A DNA stretch of 64,000 nt from Sorex araneus (taxonomy: Eukaryota; Chordata; Mammalia; Eulipotyphla; Soricidae), in the NCBI RefSeq assembly GCF_027595985.1, contig NC_073302.1, positions 98,667,234-98,731,233 on the forward strand, given 5' to 3'. The notes under the pieces are model-generated. The model did no database searches. It was not told the DNA's origin and saw nothing but the letters and a program-made list of their open reading frames with translations. This document shows positions 50,718-64,000 of the stretch, piece after piece (the stretch's first letter is position 1; each line of letters begins with the position of its first letter). The position numbers and the translations under genes are program-made.

Positions 50718-51835
50718 TAAGATGGGAAAACGAAGAAAGAAAGAAAAAGAAAGAAAGGAGGTGACAGGGAGGGAGGAAAGAATGGAGGGAAAGGGAGAGA
50801 AGGAGGGAATAAAGAAAGAGAAGGAGGGAAGGATGGAAAGAAATACAAAAGGGAGGAAGGAGAGAAGAAAGGAAGGAAGGAAGGAAGGAAGGAAGGAAGG
50901 AAGGAAGGAAGGAAGGAAGGAAGGAAGGAAGGAAGGAAGGAAGGAAGGAAGGAAGGGAGGGAGGGAGGAAGGTAGAAAGGGAGGAAGAAAGGAAGAAAAA
51001 AAGGAAGAAAGAAAGGAAAAAGGAAGAAAGAAAGAAGGAAGGAAGGAAGGAAGGAAGGAAAGAAAGGAAGGAGAAAAGAAAGAAGGATGGAAGAGAAGGT
51101 GAGTAAGAGGGAGGGAGGAAGGAAGGATGGAGAAAGAGCGAGTGAAGGACAGGGATAGAAGGAAGGAGGGATGGAGGGAATAAAGAAAGAGAAAGAGAGA
51201 GGGAGAGAGGGAAAGAAAGAAGGAAGGAAAAGTGAGATAGAGAATTTAAAACAGAAAGAAAAGAAAAGAAAGAGAAAGAAAGAAAAAGAAGGAAGGAAGG
51301 AAGGAAGGAAGGAAGGAAGGAAGGAAGGAAGGAAGGAAGGAAGGAAGGAAGGAAGGAAGGAAGGAAGGGAGGGAGGGAGGGAGGGAGGAAGGTAGAAAGG
51401 GAGGAAGAAAGGAAGAAAAAAAGGAAGAAAGAAAGGAAAAAGGAAGAAAGAAAGAAGGAAGGAAGGAAGGAAGGAAGGAAGGAAGGAAAGAAAGGAAGGA
51501 GAAAAGAAAGAAGGATGGAAGAGAAGGTGAGTAAGAGGGAGGGAGGAAGGAAGGATGGAGAAAGAGCGAGTGAAGGACAGGGATAGAAGGAAGAAGGGAT
51601 GGAGGGAATAAAGAAAGAAAGAGAGAGGGAGAGAGGGAAAGAAAGAAGGAAGGAAAAGTGAGATAGAGAATTTAAAACAGAAAGAAAAGAAAAGAAAGAA
51701 AAAGAAGGAAGGAAGGAAGGAAGGAAGGAAGGAAGGAAGGAAGGAAGGAAGGAAGGAAGGAAGGAAGGAAGGAAGGAAGGAAGGAAGGAAGGAAGGAAGG
51801 AAAGAGAAAGAGGGAGAAAGAAAGGAAGAGGAGAC
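50718..51835 (+). repeat. Large GGAA-rich purine tract with a ~420-bp higher-order repeat
   Basis: Over 1.1 kb of almost pure purines on +. Three long (GGAA)n runs (about 50872-50955, 51289-51367 and 51705-51801) alternate with mixed purine spacers. The spacer is duplicated: GGTAGAAAGGGAGGAAG starts at 50971 and 51391 (period 420), and GAATTTAAAACAGAAAG at 51241 and 51668 (period 427). The long open frames on both strands (e.g. poly-PSFL on -) are by-products of the repeat. Confidence 0.97.
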
Positions 51836-55358: not shown

Positions 55359-55670
55359 TATAAATCAGCAACAAGTGCCTCTGGATTATGAAAGTGGCAT
55401 ATCTATGACCAGAAAATTTTAATATTATTTCTTTTAAGTGGCATTGTTCTTTAGATTAATGAATAGCTTCCCTGGGAGCTTGCTAATATCAGCGCTCTTC
55501 ACCAGGAGCAGCACGGGCGGGCTCTCGCCCGGCACCAGGGCACCCTTAACGCCCCTCAGCAGCGCCAGACCCAGCCAGCTTGTCCTGCTTGCCTCGTCAG
55601 CGTGTCCCACTGCACGTGTGCTCGGCAAAGGGTCTGTGAGATCTGCTGAACAGTCCGGCCTGGCAGCACA
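55359..55670. other. GC-rich DNA upstream of the minisatellite, unassigned
   Basis: Composition changes from AT-rich to GC-rich at ~55490. A - strand frame (55434-55628; VGHADEASRTSWLGLAL...) stays open for 64 codons but is not recognised; it could be a small retrocopy or chance in GC-rich DNA. Confidence 0.4.
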
Positions 55671-55903
55671 CCTGGGTCAGGGGATGCCCTGACAGCAGCC
55701 CACCTGAACCGGGGATGCTCCCTCCCCCACAGGCCACCTGGGTCAGGGGATGCCCCGACAATAGCCCACCTGGACCCGGGAGATGCCTGATACCGCCAGC
55801 CAACCTGGGGCAGGGATGCCCCAACACCAGCCCACCTGGATCGGGGATGCTCCCGCCCCCATCAGCCCACTTATACCCGGGGAACCCCCGCCCCACGCCC
55901 AGC
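55671..55903 (+). repeat. 33-bp minisatellite upstream of FOLH1
   Basis: Seven degenerate units beginning CCTGGGTCAGGGGATGCC or similar at 55671, 55703, 55737, 55769, 55804, 55835 and 55870 (spacing 31-35 bp), each ending around CAGCCCA. It lies about 220-450 bp 5' of the exon 1 ATG. Confidence 0.9.
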
Positions 55904-56122: not shown

Positions 56123-56219
56123 ATGTGGACCTTCCGGGGCGCAGGCCGGTGCCCCCGCGGGCAGTGCGCGTCCGCCCTGGGGCTGGCCTCGGGGCTGCTG
56201 GGCCTGGGCTTCCTGCTCG
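56123..56219 (+). CDS. FOLH1: FOLH1 exon 1: cytoplasmic tail and transmembrane anchor
   Basis: FOLH1 (glutamate carboxypeptidase II, NAALADase I, PSMA) is a type II membrane zinc peptidase of the M28 family. It releases glutamate from N-acetylaspartylglutamate and from poly-gamma-glutamyl folates at the cell surface. This exon encodes 32 codons plus one base: MWTFRGAGRCPRGQC, a short basic cytoplasmic tail, then the hydrophobic ASALGLASGLLGLGFLL anchor. It ends ...CTGCTCG with donor GTAGGT at 56220. The start was chosen because MW begins the family protein and exon 2 joins in phase with the conserved LLGWF. The Kozak context is weak (T at -3) and the same frame is open upstream to 55715, so a longer N-terminus cannot be excluded. 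The segment is seven residues shorter than human, and only the hydrophobic anchor and MW are alike. Confidence 0.82.
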
Positions 56220-60784: not shown

Positions 60785-60893
60785 GATGGTTTATGAAGTC
60801 ATCCCATGAAGCTACTAAAACTGATCTACATCATGATATGAAGATGGCCTTTTTTGAAGAATTGAATGCTGAGAACATCAAGAAATTCTTATA
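60785..60893 (+). CDS. FOLH1: FOLH1 exon 2: stalk
   Basis: 109 bp, phase 1 to phase 0+2. It encodes (G)WFMKSSHEATK ... FFEELNAENIKKFL(Y), the end of the membrane anchor and the stalk leading to the ectodomain. WF.KSS.EAT and AENIKKFLY are family hallmarks. Acceptor TTTTATAG (60777-60784); donor GTAAAC at 60894. Compared with human, the N-glycosylation sequon in EATNIT is absent (EATKTD) and one residue is added before FFEEL. The donor overlaps an in-frame TAG (TTA TAG), so intron retention would terminate at once. Confidence 0.95.
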
Positions 60894-62106: not shown

Positions 62107-62293
62107 TAATTTTACAAGAATACCACATTTAGCAGGAACAAAACAAAACTTTCATCTTGCAAAGCAAATTCAATCCCAGTGGAAAGAATTTGGCCTGGAT
62201 TCTGCTGAGTTGGTCCAGTATGACGTCCTGTTATCCTACCCAAATAAAACTCATCCCAACTACATCTCAATAATCGATGGAAGTGGAAATGAG
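62107..62293 (+). CDS. FOLH1: FOLH1 exon 3: start of the ectodomain
   Basis: 187 bp, completing the Y codon and 62 codons: [58 protein letters not shown]. This is the N-terminal part of the protease domain. Wording such as [11 protein letters not shown] favours FOLH1 over its paralogue NAALAD2. Acceptor TTTTTGTTAG (ends 62106), donor GTAAGA at 62294. Sequons NFT and NKT are kept. Confidence 0.97.
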
Positions 62294-63134: not shown

Positions 63135-63236
63135 ATTTTCAACACATCCTTATATGAACCACCTTGTCCAGGATATGAAAATGTTTCAGATGTTGTGCCA
63201 CCGTTCAGTGCTTTCTCTCCAAAAGGAGTGCCTAAG
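63135..63236 (+). CDS. FOLH1: FOLH1 exon 4: ectodomain, ending at a duplicated splice donor
   Basis: 102 bp, 34 codons: IFNTSLYEPPCPGYEN, VSDVVPPFSAFSPKGVPK. Matches the family (IFNTSL.EPP.PGYENVSD.VPPFSAFSP.G.P). Acceptor TTCCTTTAG ends at 63134. The donor GTAACC at 63237 keeps frame; the joined exons 1-4 total 495 bp = 165 codons. Sequons NTS and NVS are kept. Odd: a Cys replaces a Pro in EPPPPGY, and the last 9-12 exon bases with the donor recur downstream in tandem. The donor AAG|GTAACC lacks the usual G at +5, so it is a modest site. The metal-binding and catalytic residues lie in later exons outside the window. Confidence 0.95.
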
Positions 63237-63942
63237 GTAACCGCACAGCACACACACACACACACACACACAAACACGCACACGCACACACACGCACACA
63301 CACATGCACACACGCACTGAGGCAGGGGGTGCCTAAGGTAACCGCACAGTACAGACACACACACACAGACACACACACGCACACACGCACTGAGGCAGGG
63401 GGTGCCTAAGGTAACCGCACAGTACAGACACACACACACACACAGACACACAGACACAGACACACACATGCACACACGCACTGAGGCAGGGGGTGCCTAA
63501 GGTAACCGCACAGTACAGACACACACACACAGACACACACACACACACGCACTGAGGCAGGGGGTGCCTAAGGTAACCGCACAGTACAGACACACACACA
63601 CACACAGACACACAGACACAGACACACACATGCACACACGCACTGAGGCAGGGGGTGCCTAAGGTAACCGCACAGTACAGACACACACACACACACAGAC
63701 ACACAGACACAGACACACACATGCACACACGCACTGAGGCAGGGGGTGCCTAAGGTAACCGCACAGTACAGACACACACACACAGACACACACACAGACA
63801 CACACATGCACACACGCACTGAGGAAGGGGGTGCCTAAGGTAACCGCACAGTACAGACACACACACACAGACACACACACAGACACACACATGCACACAC
63901 GCACTGAGGAAGGGGGTGCCTAAGGTAACCGCACAGTACAGA

Positions 63943-63980
<38 letters not shown>

Positions 63981-64000
63981 CACGCACACAGAGGCAGGGA
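63225..64000 (+). repeat. Tandem array of exon 4 splice-donor units with CA-rich spacers
   Basis: CCTAAG|GTAACCGCACAG occurs nine times, with the donor GT at 63237, 63338, 63411, 63502, 63573, 63664, 63755, 63840 and 63925 (spacing 101, 73, 91, 71, 91, 91, 85, 85). Copies 2-9 are each preceded by CACTGAGGCAGGGGG or CACTGAGGAAGGGGG and followed by TACAGACACACACA-type CA repeats. The exon copy is preceded by AAAAGGA. The array runs off the window end; the last unit is incomplete. Open frames on - (repeated VCVCVCV) are repeat artefacts. Confidence 0.95.

Follow-up and report, generated by a model that had tools for sequence, protein, structure and literature searches.

The 5' splice site of FOLH1 exon 4 in Sorex araneus has been copied, together with the end of the exon, into a tandem array of nine units. 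In the window, by which we mean the whole stretch of 64,000 nucleotides that was analysed, CCTAAGGTAACC was found nine times, always exact and always on the forward strand, with starts from 63231 to 63919, and 100 shuffles in which one mismatch was allowed gave a mean of 0.18 matches and at most 1. The block common to all nine copies is 21 bases long (GTGCCTAAG|GTAACCGCACAG, first at 63228) and consists of nine exon bases and twelve intron bases. Thus the two central claims of the initial annotation, that the end of exon 4 and its donor are repeated nine times at 71-101-bp spacing with an unchanged core, and that the repeat unit spans the exon-intron border, were borne out. With nine tandem units of tens of bases (71-101 bases), each bearing the exon-end donor, the array is a minisatellite. 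We think it probable that this minisatellite is young and local, and that its unit 1 acts as the working donor while the other eight units are near-silent decoys.

The units, all on the forward strand, follow one another at spacings of 101, 73, 91, 71, 91, 91, 85 and 85 bases. Unit 1 (63228-63328, 101 bases) contains the exon end, the presumed working donor at 63236/63237 and a spacer of its own with (CA)12. It is followed by unit 2 (63329-63401, 73 bases; donor 63337/63338), unit 3 (63402-63492, 91 bases; donor 63410/63411), unit 4 (63493-63563, 71 bases; donor 63501/63502), unit 5 (63564-63654, 91 bases; donor 63572/63573), unit 6 (63655-63745, 91 bases; donor 63663/63664), unit 7 (63746-63830, 85 bases; donor 63754/63755) and unit 8 (63831-63915, 85 bases; donor 63839/63840). 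Unit 9 (63916-63999; donor 63924/63925), with its own spacer carrying (CA)14, forms the right edge. If the donors of units 2 to 9 were used, exon 4 would be 203, 276, 367, 438, 529, 620, 705 and 790 bases long, respectively. The array ends at about 63999 at GAGGCAGGG, where ordinary intron begins; it lies entirely inside the window, and no further exact copy of the core was found downstream on the chromosome. The CA-rich spacers had been said to vary in length, and this holds for the array as a whole, the units differing also in GAGGCAGG versus GAGGAAGG, but no difference at all exists among units 3, 5 and 6 (91 bases each) or between units 7 and 8 (85 bases each). Units 1 and 9 differ most from the rest, as the edges of arrays usually do.

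The gene looks like a working FOLH1. The exon 4 peptide matched 13 sequences, with 53.7-53.9 bits against 12 glutamate carboxypeptidase II chains and 35.1 bits against the single carboxypeptidase III, and 28 of its 34 residues (82.35%) are identical to human FOLH1. By these scores the peptide is closer to glutamate carboxypeptidase II than to III, which identifies the exon as belonging to FOLH1, as had been annotated. On the forward strand, the coding part of exon 1 (56123-56219, start codon at 56123) taken alone matches only weakly (60% over 25 residues) but is in frame with exon 2 (60785-60893), which is followed by exon 3 (62107-62293) and exon 4 (63135-63236). Exon 4 has 34 codons and phase 0 at both ends, and its final nine bases are the left part of unit 1. 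Intron 3 is 841 bases long and intron 4 is 14,419 bases long. Exons 1-6 could be joined in frame and the later exons follow in order downstream; the exons are ordered, open where read, and provided with splice sites. When the genome was searched with the peptide of exons 4 and 5, four matches were returned, namely the two exons described here and, on contig 2, two from a single paralogue; one FOLH1 locus and one paralogue were thus found. We thus rejected the possibility that the locus is a pseudogene or a second FOLH1 copy. Exon 4 of the paralogue ends in M-P-E with the donor GAG|GTAAAA, and no tandem array was found at that border. Within FOLH1, where 10 donors and 5 acceptors were tested, the exon 4 donor was the only site with a tandem array within 30 bases. 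Two other arrays were seen further upstream. With periods of 31, 35 and 66, the GC-rich one (55664-55870) is situated some 250-460 bases before the start codon and is likely to be in the promoter or first-exon region; the other is an AGGA-type array of about 1 kb (50766-51802), purine-rich on the forward strand, about 4 kb upstream of exon 1.

The junctions of the array suggest how it could have arisen. They read AAAAGGA|GTGCC at the exon, GGCAGGGG|GTGCC between units and GGCAGGG|ATGTT at the right flank, as would be seen if, in the first duplication, the intron at GAGGCAGGG had been fused with the exon at GTGCC by way of a few G common to both. The duplicated segment would have contained about the last nine bases of exon 4, the donor and the CA microsatellite up to GAGGCAGGG; once copied in tandem, it would have grown by single- and multi-unit steps. 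The identity of units 3, 5 and 6 and of units 7 and 8 implies that the later growth was recent and took place partly in multi-unit steps. The invariant core is no evidence of selection, because the recent units are just as uniform in their spacers; selection on the core was rejected on the ground that identity extends past it through whole units, and the sameness of the core appears to reflect youth instead. An origin from a dispersed repeat was also rejected, since a genome search with the 20-base core found nine exact places, all in the array, and one place elsewhere with two mismatches, both counts being lower bounds. AAGGTAACC was not repeated on the forward strand within 151.8 kb around FOLH1, and the right flank, considered as a repeat copy, gave only four short weak matches besides itself (E 0.17-0.59) within the 151.8 kb.

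Because all nine donors are equal, the choice among them rests on position and context. The eight extra donors had been reported to match the real one at positions -3 to +6, and the identity in fact extends beyond these positions. The donor itself (AAG|GTAACC), which the initial annotation had called only modest, ranks 10th weakest among 18 FOLH1 donors when scored with a donor-frequency matrix and 8th weakest when ranked by its U1 pairing energy of -6.5 kcal/mol. The 18 donors were picked by eye at exon ends, and a few of the other duplexes took unusual registers. By both rankings it is modest but ordinary, a donor of middling strength. The available text of PMC9225289 sets the border of exon definition at an intron length of about 250 bases, and introns 3 and 4 both exceed it. 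In five minigenes of that report, which contained two identical strong donors (CAG/guaagu) and 365-base introns, the upstream donor was used exclusively, and among human events between two long introns the upstream of two donors with near-equal scores was preferred. What weighs the other way is that, without a filter on donor strength, about 60% of human events favoured the downstream donor. When the donors were very weak, exon skipping was seen in the larger constructs, while the smaller ones kept the upstream choice. The same text describes a preference for shorter exons, which, given that the extra donors of the shrew would produce exons of 203 to 790 bases, weighs toward copy 1. The minigene donors were strong, whereas the exon 4 donor of the shrew is middling. 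We propose that exon 4 would be recognised across the exon, and that among equal donors the one nearest to its 3' splice site would win. By exon definition and this nearest-donor rule unit 1 would stay the working donor; copy 1 should dominate splicing and most of the extra donors should be near silent.

An in-frame TGA (63318-63320, forward strand, in frame with exon 4) precedes donors 2-9 and would be met upon use of any of them. When copies 2-9 were joined to exon 5 by computation, all eight products stopped at this TGA, just as had been predicted; the stop comes after 192 residues. With many junctions lying downstream of a premature stop, decay of such transcripts is expected. The accompanying statement that the extra donors should yield products for decay is, however, not supported in quantity, since introns of 841 and 14,419 bases make an exon-definition setting and, in the minigenes described in the available text of PMC9225289, the upstream donor was used exclusively. 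We expect at most a small leak to copies 2-4, which would lead to the 192-residue truncation and its removal by nonsense-mediated decay. In human IFI6, two downstream units are used besides the first, according to the available part of PMC4526556, a point in favour of some leakage to copies 2 and 3. It is likely that some use of downstream donors takes place here.

If the extra donors were used at a real rate, each use would end in decay and the number of units would set the output of FOLH1. The identity of all eight extra donors to donor 1 and the uniform stop after 192 residues are consistent with such a control of dose, as are the middling strength of the donor and the use of downstream units in IFI6, in the text available on that gene; arrays of this make-up would also be expected to vary in number. 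But the exclusive use of the upstream of two identical donors in minigenes, together with the disfavouring of long exons, both from the available text of PMC9225289, makes this reading unlikely.

A second alternative concerns the protein. The best protein match was that of Sorex fumeus (94% over query residues 70-260), and a second search, directed at the N-terminal part of the protein, listed 15 proteins, of which three were from shrews, all of them Sorex fumeus isoforms. Exon 4 ends in V-P-K here and in T-P-Q in Sorex fumeus, while the preceding 31 residues are the same. Among the best 120 of 1244 homologues, an alignment that includes isoforms and paralogues, E occupies residue 171 in 116 sequences and Q in 4, including the three S. 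fumeus isoforms, whereas K occurs there in none; residue 169 is M in 83, T in 16, V in 14, L in 5 and I in 2. At least two base substitutions separate T from V and at least one separates Q from K, which places three or more substitutions within the nine coding bases of the repeat. The chance that at least 2 of 11 differences in 200 residues fall in this three-codon stretch is 0.008 when all sites are assumed alike, but sites are not alike and the stretch was picked after the fact, and the clustering of substitutions in the repeat-borne exon end is only suggestive. The initial annotation had named orthologous exon 4 donors of different sequence that do not match the core as evidence against its reading; in part such a difference was found, because T-P-Q of S. 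fumeus cannot be encoded by the repeat core, a comparison made at the protein level. By this comparison the two Sorex species did not both inherit the present core from their common ancestor, which implies either that changes in the exon preceded its amplification or that exchange with the array changed the exon. That the intronic units, by concerted evolution, rewrote codons 169-171 to Val-Pro-Lys through exchange with unit 1, as a minisatellite-driven protein change, and that unit number at the same time sets the loss of FOLH1 transcript to decay, seems to us improbable.

CA tracts lie directly behind each donor. Intronic CA-repeat elements bound by hnRNP L are reportedly the subject of primary papers by Hui et al. 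The available text of PMC7708053 states that hnRNP L activates or represses splicing via elements that are CA repeats or rich in CA, and reports a KD of 7.2 nM for a 20-base ligand; all nine units align to this ligand at 13.5-15.5 of 20, although any CA-rich tract may match equally well. It is probable that hnRNP L binds the CA spacers, by which the leak could be raised or lowered, and the array is plausibly a string of alternating candidate sites for U1 and hnRNP L, with an effect in either direction. It could be supposed further that the repeated U1 sites, the CA tracts and G runs form a platform that helps donor 1 or guards the intron from early 3' end formation. The position of the CA tracts immediately after each donor, the two-way action of hnRNP L, the alignment of all nine units to its ligand and the 14.4-kb length of intron 4 (14,419 bases) would suit such a role; on the other side, the ligand alignment would come out likewise for any CA-rich tract, hnRNP L bound within an exon or close by can also exclude U1 (it can keep U1 off a donor in CHRNA1, in the available part of PMC3796306), and FOLH1 of other mammals presumably manages without an array. 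We regard this role as quite doubtful. Two further ideas were rejected. A hairpin (GTGC...GCAC) that hides or presents the donor was not favoured by folding, in which four stretches gave z of -0.89 to 0.49, no better than shuffles, and the reading of units as combined acceptor-donor steps of recursive splicing did not fit, there being, on a reading of the sequence by eye, no pyrimidine tract before AAG|GT in the CA-rich units.

Least probable of all, and in our view very improbable, is that one donor beside a CA tract was misassembled into copies: some units are identical throughout, as this would produce, but others differ in spacer length and in GAGGCAGG versus GAGGAAGG, the edges differ as they do in real arrays, and the locus lies inside a 452.7-Mb sequence of a 65-contig, 2.406 Gb assembly.

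Up to nine identical donors at one exon make a natural experiment on splice-site choice. Length alleles, if they exist, would provide a test within the animal of whether, among equal donors, the winner is always the one closest to the 3' splice site of the exon, and would show how repeat number turns into decay; the locus would also show whether tandem-repeat turnover can alter codons at the end of an exon. It already adds, from another gene in another mammal, a clear instance of a minisatellite whose unit is founded on a splice donor.

When terms for the shrew or its assembly were paired with FOLH1 in the literature, none of the matches listed treated FOLH1. The variable-length CA tracts just downstream of a donor resemble the CA elements bound by hnRNP L, as far as the available texts on them go, but in the shrew they alternate with copies of the donor and the hnRNP L sites are putative. 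In the available part of PMC4974935, a tandem duplication across an exon-intron border of a potato RdRp gene made a new intron. Both cases are tandem duplications that cross such a border and carry splice signals; from what that text gives, however, a single duplication led to a new intron in potato, whereas the nine copies of the shrew lie in an intron that already existed, with no sign of a new one.

Among the papers listed in our literature search, most subscription journals being outside it, IFI6 was the one other donor-bearing minisatellite that we met. The IFI6 unit is 12 bases long, and its isoforms lie four residues apart. A minisatellite with multiple splice donors in this human gene (also 6-16 or G1P3) was reportedly described by Turri et al. 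in 1995. In their available parts, PMC3618361 cites IFI6 as a minisatellite that interferes with splicing and PMC2572611 only lists the case. Like the shrew array, that of IFI6 is, from the texts available, a minisatellite at the end of an exon with a splice donor in each unit, and the idea of a splice site that has become part of a minisatellite unit has a precedent there. Unlike it, the shrew units are 71-101 bases long and CA-rich and belong to another gene in another mammal, and downstream use, known for IFI6, is putative here. IFI6 produces coding isoforms, whereas in shrew FOLH1 each of the eight extra donors would lead to the same TGA. The principle is shared with IFI6; the unit, the gene, the species and the predicted fate of the products differ.
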